Of a stretch of 64,000 nt of DNA, positions 1-58,363 are shown one piece after another; within the stretch, counting starts at the first letter, position 1, and each line of letters starts with the position of its first letter. Source of the DNA: Myxococcales bacterium 68-20 (GTDB lineage Bacteria > Myxococcota_A > Polyangia > Polyangiales > Polyangiaceae); assembly GCA_001899635.1 (NCBI GenBank), contig MKVQ01000016.1:1-64000 (forward strand), written 5' to 3'. The translations under genes were made by a program, and so were the position numbers. A model generated the notes under the pieces. It was not told where the DNA came from. It searched no databases and was given only the letters and a program-made list of their open reading frames with translations.

Positions 1-741
1 GCACAGGTCGTTGTTGCAATCGGCCTGCCCCCTAATGCAACCGAGGTCGCACGACGAGCTGTTGCAGACGGGACCGTAATTGACAGGAAGGACGCCTTCC
101 CCGCAGACCCACGCGTCCGCGCCCACGTCCGAGGTAGTGCACTTCCTCCCGCACGCGCTGCAGTTCTCTGGATCACGATCGAGCTGCGTGCAGTCGTTTC
201 CGCATTGCGTAAAGCCGGGAGGACAACCACACGCGCCGTTCCAGCAGACTTCTCCCTCCTTGCAGGCATTACCGCACCCACCGCAGTTCGCCGGCTCCAT
301 CAGTAATGCCTCGCAGCCGTCCTCGAGCTGCCCATTGCAGTCGCCAAGGATAGCGGGGCACTGCAGGTAACACTCGCCGTCCATGCAAGAAAAATCCCCG
401 TTGCCTCCGTTCGGCGAGAATCCCCCATCGGGATCAAAGCACTTCTTGCCGCACGCTCCACAATTATTCACATCCGTTTTGAGATTCGTATTGCAGAGGC
501 CGGGCTTGTCGAGACAGGTAGCGTACGGAGCCGGGCAGTCGTACGAAATGCACATTGGGACGACCGGCTCCGTCTGAGCGTCCACTTCGACGAAGGCTGG
601 AGCTGAGATGGGTGTTCCGCCATCTTCGACGGCGATCGGCTTGTCGGTGACCGCACACCCACCGGCAGCCATGACCGCGAACGCCAGGAGAGTCGCGCCG
701 GTCGCGAACGATGCCGCGGCGAGCCTTGCGAGATTGCTCAT
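1..741 (-). CDS. Cys-rich 'NCGxCG' repeat lipoprotein, cassette copy 1 (3' end outside window)
   Basis: The minus-strand frame opens with ATG at 741 and stays open to the left edge, so the C-terminus is missing. The N-terminus is a hydrophobic export signal ending AVMAAGGC, a plausible lipobox. The mature part has repeated Cys modules of the form NCGACGKKC, NCGGCGNAC and NCSACGRKC, alternating with DCN/GDCN segments. This resembles the Stig1/MXAN_6577-like Cys-rich proteins of myxobacteria and predicts a disulphide-rich, surface-anchored protein. The start overlaps the stop of the preceding one-TM gene by 4 bp (ATGA, 738-741), suggesting translational coupling. It is the paralogue of the genes at 23396-24646 and 62223-63386. 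The family match is by motif only; no function is known. Confidence 0.8.
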   Translation of the reverse strand, partial: MSNLARLAAASFATGATLLAFAVMAAGGCAVTDKPIAVEDGGTPISAPAFVEVDAQTEPVVPMCISYDCPAPYATCLDKPGLCNTNLKTDVNNCGACGKKCFDPDGGFSPNGGNGDFSCMDGECYLQCPAILGDCNGQLEDGCEALLMEPANCGGCGNACKEGEVCWNGACGCPPGFTQCGNDCTQLDRDPENCSACGRKCTTSDVGADAWVCGEGVLPVNYGPVCNSSSCDLGCIRGQADCNNDLC

Positions 742-1463
742 TCTACCCTCCCCATCAGATCCGATGCCCTCTCCGCCTGAGGGGACCCGGGTGCTCGCCC
801 CGCGAGCGATCGCGCCACGGCCTCGGCGTCGCTGCGCCGACCGAGCCGAAGCAGCGCGTCGACACGCAGCACGTCACGCTCGAGCGCGAGTTGTCCGCGG
901 GGGAAGTCGCGCGCGTGCGCATCGAGCAGACTCAGCGCGCTCGTCGGGTCGCTCGCGAGACGAACGCGAGCGCCGTCGACGAGCCGAAGCTCCAAGGTCA
1001 GAGCATCGACCACCGGCGGCGCACGCCGCACGGCAGGAGTCGTGGCCGACGGGAGATCGCCGACCGACCGCACCGGCACCGATTCACGCCGAATGTCGTC
1101 ACCCGCCTTAGACTCGATGGGCCCGCGCGCAGCCTCGGCCACCGGCGGCGCGAGGGATGTCGCTCCTGACACATCGACGGGCGCCGGCGCATCGGTTCCC
1201 TTCGTGAACGCCCGGTCGGACATCGAGCTCCAGGCGATGACGCCAATGGCTGCGCCGACGATGACACCGCCGACGATCTTCGCCACGAGCGACCGTCCGC
1301 TCGCCGAAGGCGCCGGGCTCGCGTCGGCCATCTCGACTTGAAGACGCTGAGCGACGCGCGCGTACGCGTCCTCATCGAGCCCTCGAGGGAGAGCGGCGCC
1401 CTCGAGCAGGCGCGCCGCCGGAGGGGCGTCCGCCGCGCGTGACCAGGGGACGAGTGGTTTCAT
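738..1463 (-). CDS. One-TM sigma-partner protein, putative anti-sigma factor, cassette copy 1
   Basis: The 241-aa protein has about 57 cytoplasmic residues, a single TM helix (about 59-78, LVAKIVGGVIVGAAIGVIAW), a Pro/Ala/Asp-rich linker, and a periplasmic helical C-terminal domain (about 155-241) with TPR-like spacing. It follows an ECF sigma gene with a 4-bp ATGA overlap (1460-1463), the usual place for an anti-sigma factor. I infer that the short N-terminal segment holds the sigma factor and the periplasmic domain senses a signal. No zinc-binding HxxxCxxC anti-sigma motif is visible, so this would be a non-classical type. Paralogues: 24675-25397 and 63383-64000. A structural role is an alternative. 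Confidence 0.72.
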   Translation of the reverse strand: MKPLVPWSRAADAPPAARLLEGAALPRGLDEDAYARVAQRLQVEMADASPAPSASGRSLVAKIVGGVIVGAAIGVIAWSSMSDRAFTKGTDAPAPVDVSGATSLAPPVAEAARGPIESKAGDDIRRESVPVRSVGDLPSATTPAVRRAPPVVDALTLELRLVDGARVRLASDPTSALSLLDAHARDFPRGQLALERDVLRVDALLRLGRRSDAEAVARSLAGRAPGSPQAERASDLMGRVE

Positions 1464-2029
1464 GGGGCCTTTCTATTCGGCACGAGCGCAAGCTTTTCGG
1501 CGATGCGCTCGAAGTCTTGCCGAGCGGCATGGACGCGGGAGTGGACCGTGCCGATCGGGATTTCGAGGATGGCGGCGATTTCCGCGGGGGTCTTTCCCTC
1601 GATCTCGAACATGACGAAGACGACTCGTTTGGGATCGGAGATTCGGGACAGCACGAGCTCGAGGCGCGCACGCCTCTCGCGCGCCTCCGCCGCTTCTTCC
1701 GGGCTCGTCCGTTCGCTCGCGAGCTCGGGGAACTCGGAATCGGCAGTCGCGAGCTCATGCTTTCGAAGGACGTGGCGCCGGTAGTTCGCCACGACGCGCC
1801 GGCAGATCGAGAACAGCCAGCTCCGGAGGGAGCCCTCACCCGAGTAGGTGTCGATCTTTCGGTACACGACGACGAAGACCTCTTGGAGGAGGTCCTCGAG
1901 ATCGCGGTCTCGCACCCCGAGACGCGCGAGCGAGCTCACGACGAAGGGGGCGTGCGCCTTGTAGAGGCGAGCGACGTCGAGCGTCCTTGCCGGCATCCTG
2001 CTTGACACGCCCAACGTCGTGACGCTCAC
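1460..2029 (-). CDS. ECF-family RNA polymerase sigma factor, cassette copy 1
   Basis: The 189-aa protein has the two-domain ECF layout. Region 2 (about 20-90) includes DLEDLLQEVFVVVYRK and the GSLRSWLFSICRRVVANYRR stretch; region 4 (about 125-180) has the helix-turn-helix TPAEIAAILEIPIGTVHSRVHAAR. It should direct RNA polymerase to a dedicated promoter set, probably including this cassette. The frame starts with GTG at 2029; ATG at 1996 is an alternative that keeps region 2 intact. Its stop overlaps the start of the one-TM gene. The 363-aa protein gene starts only 49 bp away on the other strand, so one short region holds both promoters. Paralogue at 25394-26017. Confidence 0.9.
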   Translation of the reverse strand: MSVTTLGVSSRMPARTLDVARLYKAHAPFVVSSLARLGVRDRDLEDLLQEVFVVVYRKIDTYSGEGSLRSWLFSICRRVVANYRRHVLRKHELATADSEFPELASERTSPEEAAEARERRARLELVLSRISDPKRVVFVMFEIEGKTPAEIAAILEIPIGTVHSRVHAARQDFERIAEKLALVPNRKAP

Positions 2030-2078
2030 CTACTAGCAGTGTTCGGAGCGCGCTCTCCGCTTCGAAAAATCGTCGTCG

Positions 2079-3170
2079 ATGAAGACTTCCCGCTATGGAG
2101 AGGGTCTGTTTCGCATCGTTCGTTGGACGACAGCAGCCTTCGCAGCGGCGATCCTCGCGACGGCCAGCCCCGTCGCAGGCCAAGAAGCGAGCCCCCACCA
2201 GCTCCGGTGGGAACGTGGCGGAGAGCTCTGCCGTGAGGGTGAACCGCGCCTACGAAGGTACGTGGTCACGCGCCTCGGCTTCGATCCGTTCGGCGCCGGC
2301 CCACCGAAGGCAGGTGCCAGCAACGTGCGCACCATCCTCGTGGACCTCTCCGTGCAGGGAGGCGGCTACCGCCTGACGCTCGTGTTTCACGATGACGCCG
2401 GCAACGTGCGCTCGACGCGGACGCTGGAGAGCGCCTCCCGCGATTGTCGCGTCGTCCTCGAGGCGGCGTCGCTCGCCGTCGCGCTCGGGATCCAAAGCTC
2501 GCTCGAGCAAACGGCGAGGCGCCCCATCGACACCGGCCCCGACGCCCCCGCCATCGATCGCGATGCGGAGACGATCGTCCCGCCGACGCCGACGCCGATA
2601 TCGACGACGAACCCCACGAGACGGCCCGTCGTCGTCCCCTCACCTCCGCTACCACCTCCGCTCGCGGCTCGCCTCGAGGTGGCATTCGGCGTCGCCGCCG
2701 GGACGCTTCCCAGGCTCGCCCCAGGACTCGCAATCGGAGGCCTCATCGAGATCCGTAAAGGGATCTGGGCCTCGGCGAGGATGCTGCACGTCCCCGGGGT
2801 CTTGGCGGACGATTCGCGCTTCGCAATGAGCCTCAGCACGGCGCGCTTCGGCGTTTGCCTCGATCCGTGGAGAGTACGTCGGTTCGATCTGTTGAGCTGC
2901 GCGCACGCTGGCGTCGGTCTGATCTCGACCGTCGTCTCCGAGCTCACGCCCGTAGATCGAACTCCCGCATTTTTCGGCGGCGGCGGCCTCGGCCAGTGGA
3001 TCTACTATCGACCGACCCGCGGCCTGGCACTCTTCGCCGGACAAGAGGTCACGCTTCCCTTCGATCGCTATCGCCTCTTCGTCGAAGGTTCGGATCGCAC
3101 CGTGTTCACCGTCGCGCCGATAACGGCGTACACCTTCTTCGGGATCGCGCTCACGACCGATCCTCAATGA
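2079..3170 (+). CDS. 363-aa outer-membrane-like protein, cassette-associated (copy 1)
   Basis: An N-terminal signal peptide (about 1-35, cleavage near SPVAGQ) precedes a small domain ending in a DCR/EAASLAVALGI helix, a Pro/Thr-rich linker (about 160-200), and a C-terminal region of alternating glycine/aromatic strands typical of outer-membrane beta-barrels (about 205-363). It matches the protein at 26074-27165 in layout and in exact length (363 aa). Shared features include the N-terminal Cys, the 'DC…A..LA….I' helix and the barrel end. Here it is divergent from the sigma gene; in copy 2 it lies upstream on the same strand. Membership of the cassette and an outer-membrane location are inferences. 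Confidence 0.75.
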   Translation: MKTSRYGEGLFRIVRWTTAAFAAAILATASPVAGQEASPHQLRWERGGELCREGEPRLRRYVVTRLGFDPFGAGPPKAGASNVRTILVDLSVQGGGYRLTLVFHDDAGNVRSTRTLESASRDCRVVLEAASLAVALGIQSSLEQTARRPIDTGPDAPAIDRDAETIVPPTPTPISTTNPTRRPVVVPSPPLPPPLAARLEVAFGVAAGTLPRLAPGLAIGGLIEIRKGIWASARMLHVPGVLADDSRFAMSLSTARFGVCLDPWRVRRFDLLSCAHAGVGLISTVVSELTPVDRTPAFFGGGGLGQWIYYRPTRGLALFAGQEVTLPFDRYRLFVEGSDRTVFTVAPITAYTFFGIALTTDPQ

Positions 3171-17776: not shown

Positions 17777-19561
17777 TCAATGGACCGGCACGAGAGGGGC
17801 CTCGACGAGCTTTCGAACGGCCATCCCGCCCGGATATGCGTAGCTGGCGTAGCTAGCCCAGCCCCACAATGTAGCGGTGAACGGTCCCTCGCTCTTCATG
17901 CGCTGGAGGCCGTTTTGGCAATTGCCGACCACGGGTCCAGGTCTGTCCTTGCGCGCGAGATCGACCCTCGTGAACTCGTACTCACCTCGTCGCCCGATGG
18001 GCTTCCAGCCCGAGAGATTGCCTGCACACTCGAGCCAGACATCCTTGAAGTCCGGTCCGGACTTCGCGCGGACGAGGACGAGTGACGTATCCTCGTATGT
18101 CGGATCGGCGTAAAAGCTGTAGGAGCTCAGGTATTGCCCCGTCGGTACGACGTTCACGAACTCTGGATCTCCAATATCTCCCATCGGCTTCGCGACACCC
18201 CCTCCCCCCGCCCCCGTCATGTAGGCGGCGACATAGATCGGGTGCTCGGCATCCTGCGTTCGAACGACGAACGCGTCGCCGGTCCCCGCGTAGAACAACG
18301 CGACCTCCCGCGCGTTCATCGTGGTCGGCGCTCCGGCAGGGATCGCCGGATCGTAGTCGAGGATGGTGCCGTCACGCGCAGCGACAATCCGATACGGTAT
18401 GGGCTCATGCTCATTCCCTAGACGCGGGCGATAGCCGACGCCGACGTACTCGGATCCCCATTGCTCGAACGGAGGGATCTGTTGACCCAGCGCATCACAG
18501 GCGGAAGCTTCCGTAGGGACGTTGGAACAAGCATGGCCGCCGAACATCGCGGTCGGCTTGGTCGACGTGACGATACTCCCGGTAAGCTCCTCGGCTTGGT
18601 TGAGCTGAAGAAACTGGCCCTTGTCGAGTCGATATTGGATTGGGCGCCCTGCCCCACCGCCCTTGACACCAACTCCGTCCTGGATGTCTCGCGTTGGAAC
18701 GATCGTCACTTCGGTATCGTCCTCGGAGGCGACAATCTGCGCACCAGGCGCACCGAACGCCGATATATCGCCCCAGCCATTGATGATGATGTTCTCCGTC
18801 GACCACGACGAAACCGGCAACAGGAGCATCGCCGTGGGCACGTAGCTCCCAGCTCCACCGAACGGATAGATGGTGGCTAGGGAGATCGGCGCGCTCGCCT
18901 GCAATCGGAACGACGACCCGAAGGTCGTCCCACTCGCTGCTTTGTCGAGGAGCAACGGGGCCACCACGCCGTGTGGGCAATGCACCATATTATGAGAATA
19001 CGGAAGCGTCGGAGCCCCGTCCGAGAGGAACAGAATCACGCTCTCTCCGGGCTGAACCGGTCCGGAGTGCGGGATCAAGTCTGCACTTCCGGGGTTCGTC
19101 CGAAACGTCGCTCGCGACAGGTCGAGCGGCTTGCCTTCGAGCTCGACTGAGAACTCGACCGGCTCTCGCGATGTGTTGACCAGGTACGAAGCAAAGCAGA
19201 CCGGCGGAGTTACCTTGCTGTAGGCCGTCGCCTGAAAATAGAACTCGCAGCCGTTCGAGGTGCGATCCGCCGCTGCGGCCGCGCATGGGGACAGGCAAGC
19301 CCCGGCACCACACGCGAGGCCAGGCGGACATGCCTCGACGACGCTGCCCGTGCAGGAATCGATCACCGACCAACCGTCGAGCGAGCACTGAAGCCGACAA
19401 TCGGGGCCATCACCCCCTGCCGCGTCCCTATCGACATCGAAATCCAGCGGCATGGTCTCGAACACGTTTCTGTCACCCGCGCACGCGCCAACGCATGCCG
19501 CCGACAGGACGGCCCCCGCGATGGCGAGGACCAGACGATTCGACAGGTGCAGACGGTTCAT
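17777..19561 (-). CDS. IgGFc-binding-like lipoprotein, cassette copy 2
   Basis: The 594-aa protein has a lipoprotein-type signal (AVLSAACVGAC), an acidic linker, a short Cys-rich module (CRLQCSLDGWSVIDSC … CPPGLACGAGACLSPC), then about 480 residues resembling the IgGFc-binding N-terminal domain: CEFYFQAT start, DDTEVTIVPT, YVGVGYRPRLGNEHEPIPYR, YSFYADPTYEDTSLVLVR. This domain occurs in mucin-like animal proteins and in many myxobacterial surface proteins and suggests adhesion. It is the last gene of cassette copy 2 and starts by ATGA overlap with the RCC1 gene (19558-19561). Closely similar to 56549-58363. The ligand is unknown; immunoglobulin binding is not implied. Confidence 0.85.
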   Translation of the reverse strand: MNRLHLSNRLVLAIAGAVLSAACVGACAGDRNVFETMPLDFDVDRDAAGGDGPDCRLQCSLDGWSVIDSCTGSVVEACPPGLACGAGACLSPCAAAAADRTSNGCEFYFQATAYSKVTPPVCFASYLVNTSREPVEFSVELEGKPLDLSRATFRTNPGSADLIPHSGPVQPGESVILFLSDGAPTLPYSHNMVHCPHGVVAPLLLDKAASGTTFGSSFRLQASAPISLATIYPFGGAGSYVPTAMLLLPVSSWSTENIIINGWGDISAFGAPGAQIVASEDDTEVTIVPTRDIQDGVGVKGGGAGRPIQYRLDKGQFLQLNQAEELTGSIVTSTKPTAMFGGHACSNVPTEASACDALGQQIPPFEQWGSEYVGVGYRPRLGNEHEPIPYRIVAARDGTILDYDPAIPAGAPTTMNAREVALFYAGTGDAFVVRTQDAEHPIYVAAYMTGAGGGGVAKPMGDIGDPEFVNVVPTGQYLSSYSFYADPTYEDTSLVLVRAKSGPDFKDVWLECAGNLSGWKPIGRRGEYEFTRVDLARKDRPGPVVGNCQNGLQRMKSEGPFTATLWGWASYASYAYPGGMAVRKLVEAPLVPVH

Positions 19562-20916
19562 GGGAGGATCACTTCCTGCGGCACGAGGCTCGGCTGGCGC
19601 ATCTTTCCGTTACCGAGTTGTCCGTAAAGATTTGTTCCCCAGCAATACACTTTGCCATTCGACAGGAGCGCGCACGTCGAGTCGGGGAACGCTCTCACTT
19701 CGACCGCGCTCTCGGGAAGTCCTGCGACCTTCACGGCCTCATATGCATGGTTCTTCGTACCATCACCGGCCTGACCGCCTGCGTTGTATCCCCAGCAGTA
19801 CACGGCACCCGATGCGCCAACCGCGCACCACCGCTGTGGCCGCTCTAGCGAATCGCCGTTCTGAATCGTCTTGATGCTCTGGGTCGTCGCGATTTGTACG
19901 ATGGGCTCGGGGGTCGCCACCGACTGCGGAACGAGTCGAACGAATGGCGGAGATAGCGATACGTCCGCGTTCCCCCAGCAGTAGCCGACCCCGCCTGCGG
20001 TGGCGCATGCGCTGTCATACGCGAGATCAATCGAGGAAATGCCCGCCAGTGGAATCGGCATCGGATTCGTATCTGGGCTGAGCGAGGAAATACGCCCGAG
20101 CGTCGGGCTCGCCCCCCAGCTCGACGTGACACCATCCTCACGGACGGCGAGGGCCGCCGCACCCACGCGGAGCTCGCGGATCGGTACGCCGGAACCGACA
20201 GCTACGCGCTGCGGACCGAGCAAGGTCCCAGGCGTCCGCGGAGCTGGCGCGACCACCCCGTTCGAGTTATCCCCCCAGCAGAGAACATCGTCCTCGACCA
20301 AGGCGCATCCGACAACGCGACCGATGGCGATGCTCCGCACAGGGGGCAGGGCGAGCTTCAGCGGTACATTCGAAACGTACGTCCAAACAGGCCCCTCCGG
20401 CCCCTCCGCCGGGAAGCCTCCCCACCCCCAACACCAGACGCCGCCGCTCTTGTCGGTCACACACGAGGGATACAGTCGCGCAACGTCCGACAGACCGACG
20501 ACCCGCTTCGCTGTCGCGCTCTCCGGGGGATCATAAGAGCCACGACCGAGCTCGCCAGTGACGTTCGCCCCCCAGCACGCCACCGTACCGTCGTCGAGCA
20601 GAGCGCAATAGGCTTCTGCGCTGGAGCTCGCCCGCTCGAGCGAGACAGCGCACGGAGCGGAGGTGCAGACGACGGAGCGTGGACCACCATCAAACGGTGC
20701 AGCGTCAGGCCGCGACCAGCCGTCGGGGATCGACGAAGCGTCGGCGCTCGTGTCATCCAGCGTGGCGGCATCGCCCGCGCCGCCGTCGTCCGCCCCGCCG
20801 TTCCGGCCTTCGTCGTCGCTCGCGCAGCTCGCGACGGCACCTCCGAGCGCCAAGCTCGGCGTGAGAACCCAGGCAAGGGATGAACGTCGCTCAAAGAGTC
20901 GTCTTATGAAGCGCAT
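19558..20916 (-). CDS. RCC1-repeat beta-propeller lipoprotein, cassette copy 2
   Basis: From ATG at 20916 the 452-aa protein has a signal ending GGAVASC (lipobox), an Asp/Gly/Ala linker, and repeated RCC1-type blades marked by CWG: CALLDDGTVACWGANVTGEL, GGVWCWGWG, DDVLCWGDNSNG, GYCWGN, GAVYCWGYNAGGQAGDGTKN, GKVYCWGTNLYGQLGNGKM. RCC1 propellers are protein-interaction platforms, here exported and probably surface-exposed. The start lies 26 bases inside the upstream propeller A gene, exactly as in the paralogous locus, and the stop overlaps the IgGFc-binding gene. Paralogue at 58360-59742. Confidence 0.88.
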   Translation of the reverse strand: MRFIRRLFERRSSLAWVLTPSLALGGAVASCASDDEGRNGGADDGGAGDAATLDDTSADASSIPDGWSRPDAAPFDGGPRSVVCTSAPCAVSLERASSSAEAYCALLDDGTVACWGANVTGELGRGSYDPPESATAKRVVGLSDVARLYPSCVTDKSGGVWCWGWGGFPAEGPEGPVWTYVSNVPLKLALPPVRSIAIGRVVGCALVEDDVLCWGDNSNGVVAPAPRTPGTLLGPQRVAVGSGVPIRELRVGAAALAVREDGVTSSWGASPTLGRISSLSPDTNPMPIPLAGISSIDLAYDSACATAGGVGYCWGNADVSLSPPFVRLVPQSVATPEPIVQIATTQSIKTIQNGDSLERPQRWCAVGASGAVYCWGYNAGGQAGDGTKNHAYEAVKVAGLPESAVEVRAFPDSTCALLSNGKVYCWGTNLYGQLGNGKMRQPSLVPQEVILP

Positions 20917-22180
20917 TGCGAACACCGATCGCCCACAAGTTGCCATTGGACGTCCCTTTTACTTGCCATATCGCTTGCGTCATCGGCGTACCGCCCGCCC
21001 AGATCGTGGATAGACCGAAGGCGCCACCATCCCAGACGGCGCCGCCGCGAACGACGCGCCCGGTACCGCCGAGCCACAGATCCCCACCGACGGCCGCAAG
21101 TGAATTCAAGGCGCCAGGGGAAACAGTCATCGGGACGGAGGCGATGGCCGTGGAATACGGCTCGCCCTCAGCTTTGATCCTTATGACATCGCGACCGCCT
21201 TTGAGCGCGACGAGATCGCCAAGCCCGAGCGCGTGGATATCGGTAAGTCCCCCCTCGGCTCCTCCGATCAGTTGAGCTCCGGCGCGCTCCGTGCACCGAT
21301 TCAGTTGTGCATTGGAGCCGTCCGCGACTCTCCCATAGACGTTCGAGGTCTTGCGGACCAGCAGCGCGCAAGTTCCGTAGCCGGAGCGGACACGCGCACC
21401 GGCGAACCAAATGTCATCTGCGCTCGTTCCGGCGGCGCCGAAGAAGAAGAACTTCTCCGTTCCAAAATCGGGGTCCGCCGCAGCGTATTCCGCGATCCAT
21501 TCCGGTGGTGCGCCATCGGCGCTCGTCCGGCGATAGATCGTGTCGTTGAACCACGCGTAGACATCATCATGGCTCGTTCCCCAGACCCCAATCGAGGGAT
21601 TCCCCGCGTTGCCAGCGTTGCCATTGCCAACCAAATCGCGCGCCCAAGACCACGTCCCCTGCGCAGTCCGCGTCCCGTGATAGATGTATCCGGGAATAGA
21701 CTCGAAACCACGTGCCCTGGAGACACCGTAGTAGACCTCATTTTCGTTCGGCATCCAGATCTTGCCTACGAATTGTTCGGCTGCAGAGATACCCAGATCG
21801 TTCTGAGTACCATCGTCGATGTACCGCCAGCGGGCCTCCGCATCGAGCCACTCCAGGACCTTGATCCCGAGCGTCGGGCTCTCCGCGACGGCGACGGCGC
21901 GGCTGGGAAAGACCCAGATATCTTTCATCACCAGGTCTACGTCCGGCAGGACGGTCGTGCACCAACCCGCTTCGCTGCACGGAGCCGCTTCGACCGAGCC
22001 GTCCGGTTCGTCACCGGGATCCGCGTCCGGCAATGGAGCCTCACCGTCCAAGACAGACGTCGCGTTCTCGTCTGGACGGACGGGCACGGACGGCTCTTCG
22101 TCCCCTGAAGCCATGCAGGCCATCGGCACGACCGCCGCGAGCACCACCGCCCCGTACGCCATGACGTGTGCGCTCCTCAT
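20891..22180 (-). CDS. Beta-propeller-like lipoprotein A, cassette copy 2
   Basis: From ATG at 22180 the 429-aa protein has a signal with lipobox (VVPMAC), a charged linker, then repeats with W and DxxW/DDxYAW marks: DLVMKDIWVFPSRAVAVAE, GVWGTSHDDVYAWFNDTIY, GTSADDIWFAGARV, SNGNLWAIGVRNALHKTTL. The spacing of 'GTS.DD.W' motifs fits BNR/Kelch-like propeller blades. It begins by ATGA overlap (22177-22180) with propeller B and ends 26 bases inside the RCC1 gene. Paralogue 59717-61012 has almost the same length (431 aa). Predicted secreted and lipid-anchored; binding partner unknown. Confidence 0.8.
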   Translation of the reverse strand: MRSAHVMAYGAVVLAAVVPMACMASGDEEPSVPVRPDENATSVLDGEAPLPDADPGDEPDGSVEAAPCSEAGWCTTVLPDVDLVMKDIWVFPSRAVAVAESPTLGIKVLEWLDAEARWRYIDDGTQNDLGISAAEQFVGKIWMPNENEVYYGVSRARGFESIPGYIYHGTRTAQGTWSWARDLVGNGNAGNAGNPSIGVWGTSHDDVYAWFNDTIYRRTSADGAPPEWIAEYAAADPDFGTEKFFFFGAAGTSADDIWFAGARVRSGYGTCALLVRKTSNVYGRVADGSNAQLNRCTERAGAQLIGGAEGGLTDIHALGLGDLVALKGGRDVIRIKAEGEPYSTAIASVPMTVSPGALNSLAAVGGDLWLGGTGRVVRGGAVWDGGAFGLSTIWAGGTPMTQAIWQVKGTSNGNLWAIGVRNALHKTTL

Positions 22181-23399
22181 GGTCGTCCTCCGAGCGAAAG
22201 AAGCACTCCGTGACCGCCAATCCAAACATGACCTGACTCGGCGACCCAAACCGTCGTCAATTGAGGACGGAGTCGGCCGAGCCCAGCGACCTTCACGCGT
22301 GACCAACTCGTGCCGTCGAAATGAAGAACGACGCTGTTTTCTCCGACGGCCCAGACATCCGTATTGGAGCTACCCCAGACCGCGTTGAGGTTCACCGCTG
22401 TCGGAACATCCGGCACGACATCCCAGAGCAGGGGATCCCCCGTATAGCGACGAATCGTTCCGGCCGCCCCAAGGCCCAGGCTTCCGTCGCCGAAGCAGCC
22501 CAGACTCCGGTGAGCGCGTTCAGCGTCTGGCTATTGTAGGTGGTGGCATTCGGCGCAGCGCCCTGCGCCTCCGAGATGCGTACGGTCACCCCCGAGAGCC
22601 CCACCGCCCAGAGGTCGTTCGCCGACCAGCCGTGGATGCTAGTCACCTTCGCGTCTGCTGCCGGGTCCGCGCAGGACGGCCAGACGCAACTAGCCTTCGA
22701 AATGCCACTTTCACCCTCGAAAGGCTCGGCTGCCCGTTGACGGAGACGCCAAAGTCCGCCGAGCCGAAACGAACCGTACGTCGGATTCCCCTGCGCGCCG
22801 CACCACAGCCACTCGGCGCCTCGAGCGGCCCACACGGCCGAGAAGATATCGCCGCCGTAGAGGTCCGGCTCCTCGCCAATAGCATAGGATGGGGCGTAGC
22901 GAGCCCACGCGTTGTCGACGGTCGCCACGCCCCCGTCCGGAACGTCGACGCCACGCGCGTAGAGGCGATCGAACCCCGCCAGCGAGACCTCCGAAGACTC
23001 GCGGAGCCAGAGCGCCTTCATCGTCTCTTGAATGCCGAGGTTCACGCGGGTCCACGAGGTCCCGTCGAAATGCGCCAGAGCTCCACCCGAGCCCGTCGCC
23101 CACACGTCGGTCCGTGAACGACCGCGAATGACGCTGATGGTCGTTCGGTAGTCGAGACCAGCACCGGATGGCGCAGGGTCGAACAAGCCGCTCGAGCAGA
23201 GCACGTCCGGGGAGCAGGCCTCCGGAAAATACTCGCAGTCGTCACATGAGCTCGTGTCGGCGTCGGCCCCAGCGTCTGTCGGCATCGGGTCCGGCGCTCC
23301 GAGCGGATGCGGAGCAGGGTCGGCTTGATCGCCGATTGGCTCCGTCGCCGCGCACGCCGCGACGATGCCGGAGAGGTAAACCAGCCAGCGCGTCTTCAT
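22177..23399 (-). pseudogene. Beta-propeller-like lipoprotein B, cassette copy 2, with a one-base frameshift
   Basis: From ATG at 23399 (ATGA overlap with the Cys-rich gene) the frame encodes a lipoprotein (GIVAACAATEP), a Cys module (CDDCEYFPEACSPDVLCSSGLF) and propeller blades, as in the intact 405-aa paralogue at 61009-62226. At the C-run 22467-22470 (G4 on the coding strand) the frame breaks after ATEAWALG. One extra G would restore AAGTIRRYTGDPLLWDVV and join it to the open frame that ends at 22177, giving 407 aa. Either a real mutation inactivates this copy, or the run is misread in the sequence, or the site slips during expression. Everything around it is intact. Confidence 0.8.
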
Positions 23400-24646
23400 T
23401 TCGGACCTCCGCCAGCGTCGGCGATATCGTCGCAAGGCTCGACGACACAACGGCCACCGACGCACGCCTGTCCCGCGACGGCGTCGCAGATGGTTCCGCA
23501 ATCACCACAATTCATGGGATCGCTATACGTATTCGTCTCGCAACCATCCGACGTGTTCCCGTTGCAATCGGCGTGACCTTCGACACATCGCTCGACGCAA
23601 ACGCCGTATCTACAAGCCCCCAGAGCATGGTGCTCCCAGGCGGAACCAACCACCGCGGTACAATCAAAGCCGCATCTACCACAATTCTCGTGGTCGGCCG
23701 TAAGATCGACGCACTTGCCATAGCAGGTGTCGCCTGCGCATTCCCCACAGAAAGTCTGACCTTCCGGACACATACACTCTGGCATCTGGGTAGAGCTATT
23801 GATTCTGCACGCCTGTCCCGGCGCGCACGAATTTCCGCACGAACCACAGTTGTCGGGCGAGAGGAGAGTCGTCTCGCATCCATTCTCGATGTCCCCGTCG
23901 CAGTTGGCCCAAAGCGAATCGCACTTCGCGTGGCCACACGTGGCGTCCACACATCCGTTGTACATATTCGGATGTGGCGGACCACCATCGACCAGACGAG
24001 GGCAGGCGTTACCGCACGCGCCACAATTCTGGTCGTCTGTCCAGGGGTTCACACACTTGCCAAGACAGATGACATCGTCGCCGCGGCAGCCGCATCCCAT
24101 GTCGCCGCTGGCGATCCCCCGCTTTACGCACGGCTTCGCCGGGTCCGTGCACTTGGCACCGCAGGTGCCACAGTTGTCGTTGCTTCTTGCGTTATCCTCG
24201 CATCCGTTGTCGGGGACTCCGTCGCAGTCGAACGCGCCGCTCTGACACTGCATGAGGCAGCGCCCCTCGATACATTCGAAGAGCTCCCTCTCCGTGGCAG
24301 GCGGACACTTCACTCCGCACGCTCCACAGTTGTCCCGATCCGTCTGCAGATCGATGTCACAGGCGAAGCGTGAATGGGGACACGTCGTGCGACCTACTGG
24401 GCAGCGGTTCGAGGCGCAATAGCTGACGAGCGTCGGAGCGCTCGTCGTGGCAGCGTCTTCGGTCGGAATGAAGCCTGGCCCGCCGTCGACCAGATCGCTG
24501 CCAAGGACGATGGGGGCCCCCTTCGTCGTGGAGCATGACGCGATCGACACGAGCGCGGTCGTGACGAAGGACACCATGAGGCAGCCGCGCAGCGTTCGAA
24601 CGCGCCCTCCACGGAAGGGAGGACGATGATGTCGGTGTTCAGTCAT
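23396..24646 (-). CDS. Cys-rich 'NCGxCG' repeat lipoprotein, cassette copy 2
   Basis: ATG at 24646 follows a GAGG-type site. The N-terminus reaches a lipobox (LVSIASC, about Cys38). The mature chain of 416 aa holds many modules NCGACGVKC, NCGTCGAKC, NCGACGNAC, NCGSCGNSC, NCGRCGFDC, NCGDCGTIC, alternating with 'DCDG…NGCE' segments, ending CVGGRCVVEPCDDIADAGGG. The layout matches the copy 3 protein segment by segment. It is predicted to be a rigid disulphide-rich rod on the cell surface. It starts 28 bases after the one-TM gene and is coupled by ATGA to propeller B. Function unknown. Confidence 0.88.
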   Translation of the reverse strand: MTEHRHHRPPFRGGRVRTLRGCLMVSFVTTALVSIASCSTTKGAPIVLGSDLVDGGPGFIPTEDAATTSAPTLVSYCASNRCPVGRTTCPHSRFACDIDLQTDRDNCGACGVKCPPATERELFECIEGRCLMQCQSGAFDCDGVPDNGCEDNARSNDNCGTCGAKCTDPAKPCVKRGIASGDMGCGCRGDDVICLGKCVNPWTDDQNCGACGNACPRLVDGGPPHPNMYNGCVDATCGHAKCDSLWANCDGDIENGCETTLLSPDNCGSCGNSCAPGQACRINSSTQMPECMCPEGQTFCGECAGDTCYGKCVDLTADHENCGRCGFDCTAVVGSAWEHHALGACRYGVCVERCVEGHADCNGNTSDGCETNTYSDPMNCGDCGTICDAVAGQACVGGRCVVEPCDDIADAGGGPK

Positions 24647-24674
24647 GGAAGCCTCGTGCGAGTCTGTCGCGCCG

Positions 24675-25397
24675 TCACGGTCCGGAAGCAGTGCGCTCGA
24701 GCAGCGAACCGACGCGCTGCGTGTAAGGGCTCGTGGCGTTCGACGCCAGGAAGTCCTTTGCCAGCGCATTTGCCTTTTCGCGTTCACCCGAGGCCGCGAG
24801 CGCCTCGATGCGAATGACGGCGATCTCTTGGGCGAAGAGTCCCGACGGAAAGCGCCTTTGGTAGTTCTCCACAGCCTCTCGGCACGACGCGAGGTCACGC
24901 GCGCGGAGGGTCGAGCGCGCCGTCGAGACGAGCGCGAGCTCCTCGCCGAACGTCGTCCCGCGCTCGTTGGCAGCCCTGGCAGACGGGGAGGTGTTCGCTC
25001 TCGCGCGCGCCGGAGGGGGCACCGTAGGGGGCGTGTTGCTCGGCGACACCGTATCCGACGGTGCAGCAAGGTCGTTCACGGAAACGGTCCTGAGCGACGC
25101 GCTCGGGGCGGTCGCGTGCGAGGCGGTCGCGTCCGGAGAGACGACGTCGTCCTTCGGAGGCGTCGGCGGAGCCTCGACGCGGGGCCCACCGAAATGCAGC
25201 GACACCGCGGCCACGACGGATGCGCCGATGAGGAGGCGTGGGGCTGCCCAGCGCCAGCCGTTCCGGCGGCCTGCGGTCGCGAACGACATGGCCTTCTCGA
25301 ACTGGCCGGGCGAGGGAGCTTCGGTGTCCGTCGCCGCGACGAGACGCGCAAACCCGCGATCTTCGTCCATGAGGCGCTTCGGTTCGTCGTGCATCAC
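24675..25397 (-). CDS. One-TM sigma-partner protein, putative anti-sigma factor, cassette copy 2
   Basis: The 240-aa protein has a charged cytoplasmic N-terminus of about 50 residues, a TM helix (about 51-68, APRLLIGASVVAAVSLHF), a Pro/Thr/Ser-rich linker and a helical C-terminal domain (about 150-240: EELALVSTARSTLRARDLAS, QEIAVIRIEALAASGEREKA). Length and layout match the 241-aa copy 1 protein. Start GTG at 25397 (or the ATG immediately after) overlaps the sigma-factor stop. Placement and topology suggest control of the sigma factor through the membrane. No zinc anti-sigma motif is visible. Confidence 0.75.
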   Translation of the reverse strand: MMHDEPKRLMDEDRGFARLVAATDTEAPSPGQFEKAMSFATAGRRNGWRWAAPRLLIGASVVAAVSLHFGGPRVEAPPTPPKDDVVSPDATASHATAPSASLRTVSVNDLAAPSDTVSPSNTPPTVPPPARARANTSPSARAANERGTTFGEELALVSTARSTLRARDLASCREAVENYQRRFPSGLFAQEIAVIRIEALAASGEREKANALAKDFLASNATSPYTQRVGSLLERTASGP

Positions 25398-26017
25398 GTA
25401 CTCTCCCCTCGCCTCGTTCGCATCCGATGCCGTTCGAGGCGTCCTCGAAAGTCGTCCCGCGCGCGCCTGAGACGAGACGCAACGGTTCCAAGAGGCACGT
25501 CCAGGGTGTCGGCGATCTCTTGCATCGTCATTCGTTCGAGCTCGAACATGACGAAGACGACGCGATGCGCCTCGTCGAGCTCGGACATCAATCGGTAAAG
25601 GAGGGCACGTGCCCTCTCGTCATCGAGGCGCTCTTCCGGTGTCGTGTCACCTTCGTCGGACTCGCTGTCGTCGCCGAGTTGCCCGGTCGGCACCTCGCGG
25701 CTCCTCTTTCGCTTCAGATGAGTCGCGATTCGGAACGCCGCCCCGAAGAGGAAGGCGCGCTCGCGCTCCGGATGGATCTCGTCGAGGCGACGGCGCACGA
25801 CCAAGAAGAGCTCCTGCGTCGCGTCGTCGGCGGTGTCCCTATCGAAGCCGAGACGCCGCAGGAACTTCCACACACCGTCGAAGTGCGCGCGTACGATCTC
25901 GTGAAGACGTTCGGTGCGCTCGTCCTCGGTCATTGGCGAACGATCCAACGGAGAGCCGTCGCGTTCCCTCGGATCGCCGACTGGAACAGCCGTCGACGAG
26001 ACAGACGGGGTGAGCAC
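25394..26017 (-). CDS. ECF-family RNA polymerase sigma factor, cassette copy 2
   Basis: Region 2 (DDATQELFLVVRRRLDEIHPE, AFLFGAAFRIATHLKRKRSR) and region 4 (TMQEIADTLDVPLGTVASRLRRARDDF) of an ECF sigma factor are clear. The longest frame starts GTG at 26017 (207 aa); ATG at 25933 (MTEDERTERLHEIVRAHFDG, 179 aa) starts just before region 2 and may be the true start. It is the likely activator of the seven-gene run downstream, with the one-TM gene coupled to it. The 363-aa protein gene ends 56 bases upstream on the same strand. Similar to, but clearly diverged from, the copy 1 sigma factor. Confidence 0.9.
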   Translation of the reverse strand: MLTPSVSSTAVPVGDPRERDGSPLDRSPMTEDERTERLHEIVRAHFDGVWKFLRRLGFDRDTADDATQELFLVVRRRLDEIHPERERAFLFGAAFRIATHLKRKRSREVPTGQLGDDSESDEGDTTPEERLDDERARALLYRLMSELDEAHRVVFVMFELERMTMQEIADTLDVPLGTVASRLRRARDDFRGRLERHRMRTRRGEST

Positions 26018-26073
26018 GCCGGGTAGTGACGACAGTCACCGGTTCTGATCCATTTTTCTTTCGGGGTCAGGCC

Positions 26074-27165
26074 CTACATTCTGATACCGGCTCCGAGGCC
26101 TCCAAGGACGCCGAAGATGGGCACGGTGGCGAGCTGTGCGCCGCTCGCCACCGTGAAATCGTGCCGAAAGCGAGCGGCGCTGACGAGTACGGTCGCGCTC
26201 AAGAAGACATGGCGGGAGAGCGTCACCGCTCCCCAGAGCGATCCGCCAATGTCGAGCCAGGTCATCGAACCCTGTCGAGCATCGTCGAATCGTTCGGCGG
26301 ATGCCCGAAGGACACCGAGGTTGGATTCGGCGCATGGGGAGAGCGACGCGACCGTTCCGAACGAAAGCTGGAACGGACAGAGGCGCAGATTCCCGGCCGT
26401 CCAGACGAACTCGGCGCTTCCAGAAGGAAGCGCCCGCTCTCTCGGGAGACTGCGCCGGATGCCGATCCCGAGGCTCGGACGCCAACCACGCATCCAGCGA
26501 GGCCCGGTCTCGAAGGAGATCTCAACCTTCATCGAGCCGCCGAGGAGCGGGAGTGGCCCGTCGATCACGGCCGAGGTCGTCTCGGCGCGGATGTCGAAGG
26601 CGAGGTGCGCGTGGACGCCCTCCTCCGGAGCATGCCGACGCCGAGCGGTGGGGACAGAGGGCCGCTCCGCGACACGATCCGCACGGGGAACGGTCGGAGC
26701 ATCGGGCCTCGAGCTCGGCTCGTTCGAGCTCGGCTCGTTCGCAAGCGACACTTCGGGGCTCGGCGGCGATTCGTCGTTCCGAGGGTCGATCGCGACCGCG
26801 ACCATGATCGCGAGCGCCTGGGATACCGCCGCGCAATCCGGACCGGCGATTTCGCGCTCCGACACCGTTCCCATCGCATTCGCCAGGACGAAGCTGCCGG
26901 AGGCTTCGGACCGGCCTCCGGATAGACGAATACGAATGCTCCGTGACGAGCCCGCCGGAACCTGCACCCAGCGGTCGGAGTACGTTCGCACTCGGGCGAC
27001 GAACTCCGACTCCGAAGGACAGCTCTTCGTCGCTTCATACGAGAGCGCGATCGGCTCGAGCTCGTCGGAGGCGGCCCGCACCGGCGCGGATTCCATCCAA
27101 GACACGGCGACGACGGCAATGCCGAACAGTCGTTTCGGCGTGCGCCGCACAGTCATCGACGGCAT
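26074..27165 (-). CDS. 363-aa outer-membrane-like protein, cassette copy 2
   Basis: From ATG at 27165 the protein is exactly 363 aa, the same length as the copy 1 homologue at 2079-3170, which supports this start (ATG at 27156 is the alternative). It has a signal peptide (VVAVSWMESAPVRAAS), a small N-terminal domain with one early Cys and a PDCAAVSQALAIMVAVAI helix, a Pro/Ser linker, and a barrel-like C-terminus (GPRWMRGWRPSLGIGIRRSL … FGVLGGLGAGIRM). I infer an outer-membrane protein that could receive or anchor the lipoproteins encoded downstream. Confidence 0.75.
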   Translation of the reverse strand: MPSMTVRRTPKRLFGIAVVAVSWMESAPVRAASDELEPIALSYEATKSCPSESEFVARVRTYSDRWVQVPAGSSRSIRIRLSGGRSEASGSFVLANAMGTVSEREIAGPDCAAVSQALAIMVAVAIDPRNDESPPSPEVSLANEPSSNEPSSRPDAPTVPRADRVAERPSVPTARRRHAPEEGVHAHLAFDIRAETTSAVIDGPLPLLGGSMKVEISFETGPRWMRGWRPSLGIGIRRSLPRERALPSGSAEFVWTAGNLRLCPFQLSFGTVASLSPCAESNLGVLRASAERFDDARQGSMTWLDIGGSLWGAVTLSRHVFLSATVLVSAARFRHDFTVASGAQLATVPIFGVLGGLGAGIRM

Positions 27166-56548: not shown

Positions 56549-58363
56549 TCAGTTGATCGGTGCGAAAGGCATCTCGACGAGCTTCCGCTGCGCGAATCCA
56601 CCAGGGTACGCGTAGCTCGCGTATTGGGCCCACCCCCACACCGTAGCCGTGAACGGGCCCTCGCTCCGCATGCGCTGGAGGCCGGTCCTGCAGACCCTCG
56701 TATCGCCGCCCTCGCCAAAGCTGTCCCCGGGGCCACCTCGTCGCGCCAAATCGACCCGGGTAAACTCGTACTGTCCTCGCGTTCCGACGGGCTTCCAGCT
56801 CGGCAGGTTGCCTGCGCACTCGAGCCAGACGTCCTTGAACTCGCCGCCACTGCTCCTCCGCACGACGACGAGCGATGTCTCCGGGTAGGAATGGTCGGCA
56901 TAGAAGCTGTACGAGCTCAAATATTGAGCCGCCGGAACCACGTTGACGAATTCTGGGTCCCCCCAGCCGAAGAAGCTCTGCGCGGAGCCCGGCGCGCCGA
57001 CGTTGGTGTCGTTGCCAGCACCGCCCGTCATGTGAGCGGACACGTAGATGGGATGTTCGCTGTCCTGCGTACGGACCACGAACGCGTCCCCCGTTCCCTG
57101 GCTGAACTGAACGACCTCGCCCGCATTCATCGTCGTGGGAGCGCCCGGCGGGATCGCCGGATCGTAGTCGAGGCGCGTGCCATCCCGCGCCGCGACGATT
57201 CGATAGTAGACGGGCTCATGTTCATTTCCCAACCGCGGACGGTAGCCAACTCCGACGTATTCAGCGCCCCACTGCTCGAGCGCGGGGATCTGTTGGGAAA
57301 GAACGTCGCACGCGCTGGCCGTCCCCGGAATTCGTGCGCAGCTATTTCCACCGAAGAGGGTCGTCGGCTTGCTCGACGTGACGAGACTCCCGGTGAGCTC
57401 TGCGCTTTGCACGATCTGCAAGTGCTCTCCCTTCGCCAGTCGGTACGTCGCTTTGTTGTTCGCGAGCGTGCCGACCACGCGAGCGCCGTCCTCGATGTCG
57501 GCCTTCGGCAGGATGCTCACCTCGGTGTCGTCCTCGGCCGCCACGATCTGAACGGAGGGGTCGCCGGTTCGCGAGGCGGCCCAACCGTTGACGATCATAT
57601 GCTCCTTCGCCCACGTGGCGACGGGCAACACCAGCGTTGCCGTGGGCACGATGGATGGGGCTCCACCGAACGGATACATCGACGTCAGCGCAATCGGAAC
57701 GCTCGCTGTGAGTAGGAACGACGATCCGATTCCCGTGCCCTCGGGAACCGTATCAACCGTCGTAGCCGGCGTCACTTCGGATGGGCAAGCGATGTAGTCC
57801 AGCGGGAGTCCGGATTGCGGTGGCGAGTCGGAGACGAAAAGGAGCGCGCTCTCCCCCGCAGGAATGGGGCCGAGTAGAGGAGCAAGCGTCGAGGAGCCGA
57901 CTTCAGCACGAAACAGCGAGCTCGAAATGTCTATCGGTCGGCCATCCCGCACGAGCGATAGGGTGACGGGCTGCGTCGAAGTATTGACGATGAACGCCGC
58001 TTCACATGAGTGCGGATACTTCTTGGTCATGCGCGGCATCTGGAAATAGAACTCGCAGCCGTTCGAGCTTCGATCCGCAGCTGCGGCGGCGCACGGCTCT
58101 TGGCATTTCGCGCCACCACACGCGAGCTCTGGACGGCACGTCTCGACGACCGCCCCCGTGCACGTGTCGATGATCGAGCGTCCATCGAGTGAGCACTCGA
58201 CGAGGCAGCTCGGGGCATCTGCCGACGACGCGTCGAGGTCGAACGTGCGATCCTGCGGATCGAAAGCGTCTCGCTCATCCGCGCACGCGCCCACGCTCAC
58301 GACTGAGCACGTGAGACCGAAGACGAGCGGCAGCGCGCGACGATAGATTTGGGAGCGGCTCAT
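56549..58363 (-). CDS. IgGFc-binding-like lipoprotein, cassette copy 3
   Basis: From ATG at 58363 (ATGA overlap, 58360-58363) the 604-aa protein has a signal peptide (VVSVGAC), an acidic linker, a Cys module (CLVECSLDGRSIIDTC … CRPELACGGAKCQEPC) and a long IgGFc-binding-like domain: CEFYFQMPRM, DDTEVSILPKADIEDG, YVGVGYRPRLGNEHEPVYYR, YSFYADHSYPETSLVVVRRS, ending GWAQYASYAYPGGFAQRKLV. It is closely similar to copy 2 along its whole length, with small insertions, for example near residues 490-505. Predicted surface adhesin-like. Confidence 0.85.
   Translation of the reverse strand: MSRSQIYRRALPLVFGLTCSVVSVGACADERDAFDPQDRTFDLDASSADAPSCLVECSLDGRSIIDTCTGAVVETCRPELACGGAKCQEPCAAAAADRSSNGCEFYFQMPRMTKKYPHSCEAAFIVNTSTQPVTLSLVRDGRPIDISSSLFRAEVGSSTLAPLLGPIPAGESALLFVSDSPPQSGLPLDYIACPSEVTPATTVDTVPEGTGIGSSFLLTASVPIALTSMYPFGGAPSIVPTATLVLPVATWAKEHMIVNGWAASRTGDPSVQIVAAEDDTEVSILPKADIEDGARVVGTLANNKATYRLAKGEHLQIVQSAELTGSLVTSSKPTTLFGGNSCARIPGTASACDVLSQQIPALEQWGAEYVGVGYRPRLGNEHEPVYYRIVAARDGTRLDYDPAIPPGAPTTMNAGEVVQFSQGTGDAFVVRTQDSEHPIYVSAHMTGGAGNDTNVGAPGSAQSFFGWGDPEFVNVVPAAQYLSSYSFYADHSYPETSLVVVRRSSGGEFKDVWLECAGNLPSWKPVGTRGQYEFTRVDLARRGGPGDSFGEGGDTRVCRTGLQRMRSEGPFTATVWGWAQYASYAYPGGFAQRKLVEMPFAPIN

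Follow-up and report, generated by a model that had tools for sequence, protein, structure and literature searches.

Cell-surface signaling systems of the FecI-FecR-FecA type have an outer-membrane protein, a regulator with one transmembrane helix, and an extracytoplasmic function (ECF) sigma factor in a row; the FecA-type barrel is large and TonB dependent. ECF switches also adjoin some of the polysaccharide utilization loci of Bacteroides, and in antigenic variation by gene conversion (pilE, vlsE, msp2), blocks of sequence move between paralogous surface loci. PMC13088901 describes Bacteroides polysaccharide utilization loci as many paralogous operons with SusC/D surface lipoproteins, and the Dma1-3 anti-sigma factors of Bacteroidota, which pair with Das sigma factors, as single polypeptides with a sigma-binding end, a transmembrane helix, a disordered tether, and a barrel. 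The 64,000-nucleotide stretch analyzed here, hereafter the window, comes from Myxococcales bacterium 68-20 (genome G000; the window is G000:C16:1-64000) and carries at positions 17777-27165 a cassette of eight genes, all on the minus strand, in the order OMP, SIG, TM, CYS, B, A, RCC, and IgG. This cassette belongs to a family of 130 that consists of two units, a head (OMP-SIG-TM) and a body of five lipoprotein genes (CYS-B-A-RCC-IgG), each with a common history of its own.

The genome is an 11.89-Mb draft in 52 contigs (completeness, 98.4%; reported contamination, 4.2%). Within it, the IgG protein of the window yielded 144 matches, 131 of them at E values of <1e-70, including itself (the others are 36-67% identical to it), and SIG yielded at least 150, the best 150 candidates being the most that were scored. 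In 140 stretches, taken mostly around the IgG matches and merged into 2.49 Mb, matches to eight iteratively built family profiles were grouped into clusters, and a cluster was counted as a cassette if it contained five or more of the eight families. There are 130 of these on 36 contigs of up to 755 kb; they occupy 1,186,973 bp, or 9.98% of the genome. At least seven families are found in 118 clusters and all eight on one strand in 100. The first clustering rule partly split clusters by the expected order; a repeat that grouped matches by distance alone likewise gave 100 exact OMP-SIG-TM-CYS-B-A-RCC-IgG strings on one strand, a number that excludes chance in a single genome. The sequence-only reading of the window, which took the repetition of the gene order as a sign of co-function, is thereby strengthened, and the copy number implied by its label "copy 2" was far too low.

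Most cassettes are dispersed, with just 17 neighboring pairs less than 3 kb apart, and the G+C fractions of cassettes and flanks are close (0.672 and 0.683). No conserved ninth gene was found in the flanks of 118 cassettes: the two largest flank families stand beside 9 and 8 of them, on both sides and both strands. According to Pfam, the six largest flank families comprise a histidine kinase, a protein kinase, a hydrolase, a response regulator, an aldo/keto reductase, and one family without a match; none of these six is a transposase. With intactness defined as at least 85% of the profile within one open frame, and genes decayed beyond matching falling outside the count, 980 of the 990 detected gene copies are intact. 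All eight genes are intact in 93 of the 130 clusters, and 122 clusters contain their own sigma gene. The copies are deeply divergent, with a mean pairwise identity of 22-47%, depending on the family; near-identical copies were not found among the 100 full cassettes, whose closest bodies have an identity of 0.88.

The separate histories of head and body are evident from several comparisons of the 100 full cassettes. Pairwise identities correlate at 0.64-0.72 among the head genes and at 0.82-0.94 among the body genes, compared with 0.05-0.13 between head and body, and just 2 of the 100 cassettes have the same nearest neighbor in both. Where body identity exceeds 0.75 (23 pairs), the mean head identity is 0.285 (maximum, 0.348), versus 0.297 for all pairs; conversely, where head identity exceeds 0.50 (91 pairs), the mean body identity is 0.437, versus 0.384 for all pairs. 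The body tree contradicts 54 of the 55 supported head splits, and the head tree contradicts 71 of the 72 body splits; the only split common to both unites C40_486907 and C48_542757. Control comparisons inside the head (OMP plus TM against SIG) showed 8 of 54 and 5 of 41 splits contradicted and 23 shared, and those inside the body (B plus A against RCC plus IgG) showed 3 of 57 and 3 of 59 contradicted and 42 shared. The CYS tree conflicts with the head tree in 48 of 49 splits, which places this gene with the body; between the CYS and B-plus-A trees, 10 of 49 and 13 of 57 splits are contradicted and 32 are shared. The idea of one unit under one sigma factor, as put forward in the sequence-only reading, therefore has to be revised: SIG, TM, and OMP co-evolve, as do the five lipoproteins, but the two groups have been reassorted. 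Judging from the closest pairs (identity of 0.72 for heads and 0.88 for bodies), the heads are older than the bodies.

The nucleotide sequences of the eight most similar body pairs show how far the exchanged segment extends. In seven of these pairs, body blocks of 6.8-7.0 kb are 83-88% identical, while their heads are 25-32% identical; the blocks start just within CYS and end 17-112 bases past the IgG match. Averaged over 27 pairs with similar bodies, identity stays near a background of ∼0.67 until 100-150 bases beyond the lipobox of CYS, where it rises to 0.75-0.85. Therefore, the signal peptide and linker of CYS seem to remain with the head and its Cys-rich domain to move with the body. In the window copy, whose lipobox Cys codon (24535) and CYS frame were checked, the joint would by homology lie at 24385-24535 (minus strand), from that codon to ∼150 bases downstream.

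A further case comes from a relative, the metagenome-assembled genome (MAG) Labilithrix sp. ACE_MYX5, of which four loci (L157 to L160) were compared; from its matching coordinates, it is probably the congener G005. Three of them have all eight genes in the same order; L157 begins inside a cassette and includes only the body. The nearest G000 cassette to L160 is C19_131726 for all eight genes, and the nearest one to L159 is C23_157648 for six genes, with C13_150995 closest in B and IgG, where C23_157648 ranks second. The L158 head is of the C40_523484 type (OMP, 79%; SIG, 85%; TM, 74%; each rank 1), but the body of C40_523484 ranks just 18-55 (30-54% identity) against that of L158, which belongs instead with the C17_74150/C17_83775/C40_513763 group (70-83%). 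Thus, one of the three full ACE_MYX5 cassettes shows a head/body swap that postdates the species split.

Genes flanking two of these loci (L158:14469-16547 and L160:13465-17524) are 78-88% identical to G000 genes that stand beside other cassettes (C23:256-258 kb and C20:88-92 kb). A given genomic site may be occupied by different cassettes in different species; this observation was not used, because the G000 set was mostly chosen around cassettes and is therefore biased.

The wide searches of the order and the phylum scored the best 7, 10, 6, or 5 candidates per genome and so show presence, not copy number. At E values of up to 1e-30, B was detected in 4 of the 11 congeners, with 42, 11, 2, and 1 matches (39, 11, 2, and 1 after removal of three A-like rows). 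Of these 53 congener B genes, 34 are flanked on the same strand by TM upstream and by IgG downstream, 18 by one of the two, and 1 by neither; the spacing is near-constant, with medians of 1286 and 2730 bases and a single IgG gap of 213. This count used 53 of the 56 B rows, 48 of the 136 TM rows, and 46 of the 64 IgG rows, picked by eye on B-bearing contigs; the three omitted B rows are the weakest, A-like second matches, and the order counts are lower bounds owing to the fragmented MAGs. The search of relatives suggested by the sequence-only reading, which would have been abandoned if the order had occurred nowhere else, thus recovered TM-B-IgG, identically ordered and spaced, in four congeners, in addition to the 130 copies in G000.

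TM-type proteins are present in 10 of the 11 congeners (best E value of ≤4e-23 in each), so that the head type seems to be more widespread than the body. At 1e-40, B was found in 5 of the 183 genomes of the order, all in one genus, and in 1 of the 377 genomes of the phylum sample, namely, this genome; no B was found outside the genus in these 183 and 377 genomes, with the best 10 or 5 candidates scored per genome. The IgGFc protein family as such is common (149 of the 183 order genomes and 213 of the 377 sampled phylum genomes). Its first-look candidates number 144 here versus at most 27 in the other genomes of the phylum sample; congener G005, which is not in that sample, has 59 candidates for the IgG query. 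Sigma region 4 matches number at least 150 here versus 9-93 in the congeners, the larger congener figures being lower bounds. Within the genus, the copy number of B spans from 0 to ∼130.

The order of the eight minus-strand genes of the window cassette had been read correctly from the sequence, and Pfam recognizes in them IgGFc_binding, RCC1, a STIG1-like Cys-rich domain, and regions 2 and 4 of an ECF sigma factor. OMP (26074-27165), previously described as an outer-membrane-like protein, has 363 amino acids and is predicted to comprise a signal sequence, a periplasmic α/β domain, a Pro-rich tether, and an 8-stranded OmpA-like barrel. In its AlphaFold2 model (mean predicted local distance difference test [pLDDT] score of 82.9; predicted TM-score [pTM] of 0.58), the α/β domain spans residues 36-126 and the barrel residues 184-363. 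Foldseek matched the model to OmpA/Ail/NspA (E of ∼1e-6), and VIA-align gave Z scores of 16-17 to OmpA, NspA, and OprF (for OmpA, 16.9 over 159 residues at 2.8 Å), so the barrel is predicted to adopt the OmpA-like eight-stranded fold. Membership in the OmpA family proper, with its peptidoglycan-binding C-terminal domain, is not indicated: the window OMP has no Pfam match, and 20 OMP members matched one weak, unrelated family only.

SIG (25394-26017; 207 amino acids) scores above the cutoffs of PF04542 (25.0 versus 24), PF08281 (47.3 versus 25.7), and TIGR02937 (74.8 versus 42.9), as can be expected of an ECF sigma factor with sigma-70 regions 2 and 4 only. TM (24675-25397; 240 amino acids) combines a short N-terminal part, one transmembrane helix, a Pro-rich linker, and a TPR/BamD-like C terminus; among 21 aligned members of the family, TPR_14 was recognized in 8 and YfiO in 4, and the BamD profile matched at an E of 8.6e-4. 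This protein is presumed to be the anti-sigma factor of SIG, and the three head proteins could plausibly form a relay from the outer membrane through the periplasm to the cytoplasm. When the two ends of TM were compared with SIG and OMP by partial correlation, cytoplasmic and periplasmic partners could not be told apart, and this search for head-specific contacts was dropped.

Of the neighboring genes in the window cassette, SIG/TM, B/A, and RCC/IgG overlap by four bases, with the TM start on the SIG stop and the IgG start on the RCC stop. The OMP-SIG gap was searched for motifs in 93 cassettes, strictly past the OMP stop, and a TGATC motif, tttcgTGAtcaaa...cccggcAtt, was found in 46-47 of them. 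At width 14, its scores are 60.8-64.4, versus 41.7-47.8 for three synthetic sets; at width 40, they are 207.5-208.0, versus a null of 112.2-118.1. Several 6-mers are enriched upstream of SIG, such as GATTTT (20 of 100 versus 0.7 expected), and modestly so upstream of CYS (TTCCTC, 24 of 100 versus 6.3 expected). No common promoter was found upstream of OMP, where spaced words are no more frequent than in shuffles and the enrichment of 6-mers is small (the best one, TAGAGT, occurs in 8 of 100 versus 0.5 expected). The median distance from the TM stop to the start of the CYS profile is 85 bases, signal peptide included; this short spacing, along with the promoter-like motif between OMP and SIG, fits a read-through from SIG to IgG. 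The SIG/TM/OMP architecture and the same motif suggest that the cassette is under stimulus control; the purposes proposed in the sequence-only reading (contact, prey recognition, or matrix binding) are putative.

The body begins with CYS (23396-24646), a Cys-rich, STIG1-like/MXAN_6577-like lipoprotein with the lipobox IASC, which contains the joint described above. It matches PF04885 with 31.3 bits and NF041328 with 67.9 bits; the latter is below the curated cutoff of 100, so CYS falls short of membership in the MXAN_6577-like family. B (22177-23399) and its paralogue A (20891-22180) are propeller lipoproteins, B being of the DVWAVG type, and their profiles had 256 matches each before separation. 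The B family matches a Ycf48-like profile (5ojp; E of 2.9e-9), and PF14870 was seen in 8 of 20 B members at E values of up to 0.05, so B can be assigned to the predicted Ycf48/BNR-type β-propellers; A of the window had no Pfam match of its own. RCC (19558-20916) is a propeller lipoprotein with RCC1 repeats (PF13540, 61.3 versus a cutoff of 22; PF00415, 51.5 versus 21.7).

IgG (17777-19561) contains the IgGFc_binding domain PF17517 (351 bits versus a cutoff of 25.6; E of 6.7e-105). The name of this domain derives from other proteins, and binding of IgG Fc by the window protein is putative. Its model (pLDDT, 89.9) consists mostly of β-strands. The sole Foldseek match below 0.001 was the PitA pilin, with TM-scores of ∼0.1; in VIA-align, the best Z was 7.4 (1nc7), with Gram-positive adhesin and pilin domains below 5. 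No fold family was assigned, and a new fold is not claimed.

The ratio of nonsynonymous to synonymous substitutions (dN/dS) in the 27 body pairs, which are not independent, is 0.31-0.46 gene-wide. The highest sliding-window values are 1.02-1.17 for CYS, B, A, and RCC and 0.71 for IgG; no window is clearly above 1, and the signs of diversifying selection in the body are suggestive at best.

The window copy was initially called complete. Its eight genes are all there and in order, but B is split over two frames (22464-23363 and 22186-22470), which cover profile parts 2-282 and 281-374, respectively, so that the copy is not strictly complete. The frameshift near 22464-22470, either a mutation or an assembly error, makes this B the only one of the 129 detected that has less than 85% of the profile in one frame. 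The second copy (56549-64000, minus strand), noted in the sequence-only reading, comprises IgG, RCC, A, B, CYS, and a partial TM within the window and continues beyond its end on the same contig with SIG (64174-64647) and OMP (64814-65755). A third copy (4-3122), truncated by the contig start, has SIG-TM-CYS on the minus strand (4-1972) and OMP on the plus strand (2145-3122), divergent from SIG.

Rearranged copies also occur elsewhere in the genome. OMP is absent from 21 of the 130 clusters but lies nearby in at least 10 of these, divergent from SIG in five, as read from the cluster maps, and 3′ of IgG on the same strand in five. At C44:191811-201311 (L108) and C4:437738-445969 (L122), head and body are adjacent on opposite strands, so that they remain linked without being co-transcribed. 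Copies lacking a head or a body were sought within the fetched stretches only. Heads of the OMP-SIG-TM or SIG-TM type, with no body in the fetched stretch, were seen at C17:7629-9918 (L149), C43:74324-76727 (L150), and C40:332897-334176 (L154). A variant at C9:51953-59394 (L145) includes OMP-SIG-TM, a short CYS match, and two tandem IgG matches, with B, A, and RCC unmatched; it may resemble an ancestral form.

Taken together, these data make it fairly probable that the genome encodes more than 100 trans-envelope ECF switches, each with a trigger of its own, that are coupled to interchangeable surface complexes, as a genus-specific amplified family of two-module operons. In the proposed mechanism, the OMP barrel and its periplasmic domain would report a surface cue to the one-helix TM protein, which has a periplasmic TPR domain and would sequester the sigma factor in the absence of the cue. 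Once released, the sigma factor would activate a promoter in the OMP-SIG gap, in an autoregulatory manner, and transcription would read through SIG-TM-CYS-B-A-RCC-IgG. The five lipoproteins, presumably located in the outer membrane (a Cys-rich protein, a pair of DVWAVG propellers, an RCC1 propeller, and an IgGFc-domain protein), could work as one complex, whose output, judging from the lipoprotein signals, the propellers, weak adhesin-like matches, and the copy-number differences among congeners, might be contact, recognition, adhesion, or evasion. Body blocks of ∼7 kb would be copied onto other heads by recombination with joins in the N-terminal part of CYS and just past IgG, so that the cell would retain over 100 independently triggered inputs wired to a reassorted pool of surface complexes.

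Several observations weigh against this interpretation or narrow it. The 21 TM members matched mainly TPR-type families and none of the anti-sigma families in Pfam, so that the anti-sigma assignment draws on position, topology, and co-evolution with SIG and OMP. The top-scoring motif in the OMP-SIG gaps is a GC-rich one (80.7 at width 14 and 211.6 at width 40), not TGATC; either could be the target of the family's sigma factors, and TGATC is at most promoter-like and only a candidate for that role. OMP may be transcribed separately, because it lies upstream of the motif-bearing gap and is sometimes divergent or 3′ of IgG. A strict lipobox rule was satisfied by 57-86 of 100 members per body family (compared with 6 of 100 for OMP and 3 of 100 for TM), and 50 of the 1,040 gene places in the 130 cassettes had no match. 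In the eighth of the similar body pairs, C16_98474/C19_230233, the alignment extends upstream into the sigma region of the head, at 80% identity. There is also a residual association between heads and bodies (Mantel r of 0.088, equaled by 2 of 999 permutations), and with bodies sorted into four clusters, 8 of the 16 multimember head clades bear both large body classes, versus a random expectation of 11.8. This association suggests that cassettes are inherited whole for a time and then swap.

An alternative is that these are ligand-matched uptake or sensing operons, like the Bacteroides polysaccharide loci, with each head sensing the ligand that its body binds. The ECF sigma factor and membrane partner adjoining surface-type lipoproteins, the high copy number, and the head-body linkage kept in some rearranged copies would all fit, but matched ligands predict a head-body co-evolution that is nearly absent here. 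In addition, Pfam recognized neither SusC/D nor a TonB-dependent transporter or porin nor any enzyme domain in the eight proteins of the window cassette or in 20-21 members of each of the TM, B, and OMP families, so these are not Sus-type loci, and the barrel is modeled with just 8 strands; this explanation is unlikely. A variable coat that serves to discriminate phages, predators, or kin, in which differences among bodies matter, the cue matters little, and gene conversion refreshes the bodies, would account for the movement of body blocks between heads, the range of B copy numbers in the genus, and the dN/dS of 0.31-0.46, which locally approaches 1 in CYS, A, B, and RCC. It has a better claim but is still doubtful, given that no dN/dS window is clearly above 1 (and none in IgG exceeds 0.71), neither a silent-cassette store nor a single expression site was seen, and 122 of the 130 clusters have their own sigma gene.

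Selfish or neutral proliferation of the operon, with no selected function, could be invoked for the wildly different copy numbers among congeners and for dispersed copies whose most frequent neighbor family flanks 9 of 118. The near-universal intactness of the detected genes despite their deep divergence, dN/dS below 0.5, the lack of transposases in the six Pfam-tested flank families, and the lack of near-identical copies among the full cassettes make it just as improbable as ligand matching. As for an assembly or binning artifact from mixed strains or chimeric contigs, which the 4.2% contamination and the 52-contig draft might bring to mind, it is barely conceivable: the cassettes lie on 36 contigs, some very long, with G+C close to that of their flanks, the copies share little identity, and the eight genes recur in the same order in three ACE_MYX5 loci, the fourth beginning inside a cassette.

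The independent histories of input and output argue against an operon that senses what it binds and favor a repertoire that lets every trigger be combined with every surface set. A combinatorial surface-identity system of this kind, reassorted by in-place module conversion, is a tentative extension of the switch-and-complex interpretation, possible but less likely than not to hold in full. If true, it would parallel, in a bacterium, the modular repertoires of receptors or antigens, with a bearing on kin and prey recognition and on evasion of phages and predators. In any case, input/output independence is a strong constraint on function. The family also offers two natural libraries, one of ∼100 sigma/partner/barrel sets, as material for orthogonal switches and for tracing the divergence of ECF specificity, and another of ∼100 five-protein surface sets, and it makes the role of many regulated surface sets in one cell (recognition, foraging, or evasion) directly testable.

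The individual protein families are already known, as are surface operons under ECF control and large families of surface proteins, so the newness lies at the level of the system; on a cautious view, this is a far variant of ECF-controlled surface operons. Text searches of the literature, whose coverage leaves out most subscription papers and all bioRxiv preprints, found no description of the cassette. To our knowledge, no other bacterium has one eight-gene operon filling 10% of its genome, and there is no precedent for ∼130 mostly intact copies of such an operon with reassorted signaling and surface halves. Nor do we know of another operon family in which exchange between sensing and output halves has gone so far that a single supported split is common to their trees.

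Compared with the systems described at the outset, the cassettes resemble the Bacteroides polysaccharide utilization loci in forming many paralogous surface-lipoprotein operons; they differ in their fixed eight-gene content and in the reassortment of head and body. With the FecI-FecR-FecA systems, they share the row of an outer-membrane protein, a one-helix regulator, and an ECF sigma factor, but the barrel is 8-stranded, and no FecR family match was found in 21 TM members. Like the Dma proteins, as portrayed in PMC13088901, the head unites a sigma-binding end (presumed here), a transmembrane helix, a tether, and an outer-membrane barrel in one signaling path; this path is, however, divided between TM (240 amino acids) and OMP (363 amino acids), each with a Pro-rich linker, and is accompanied by a lipoprotein body. 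The other PF17517 proteins of the Myxococcota have the same domain as IgG, but the sampled genomes encode far fewer candidates (at most 27 versus 144), and among the 183 order and 377 phylum genomes searched, B was found only within the genus. Finally, blocks move between paralogous surface loci as in the variation of pilE, vlsE, and msp2, but here the block spans multiple genes, neither a silent donor store nor a single expression site was seen, and nearly every copy is intact and has its own regulator.

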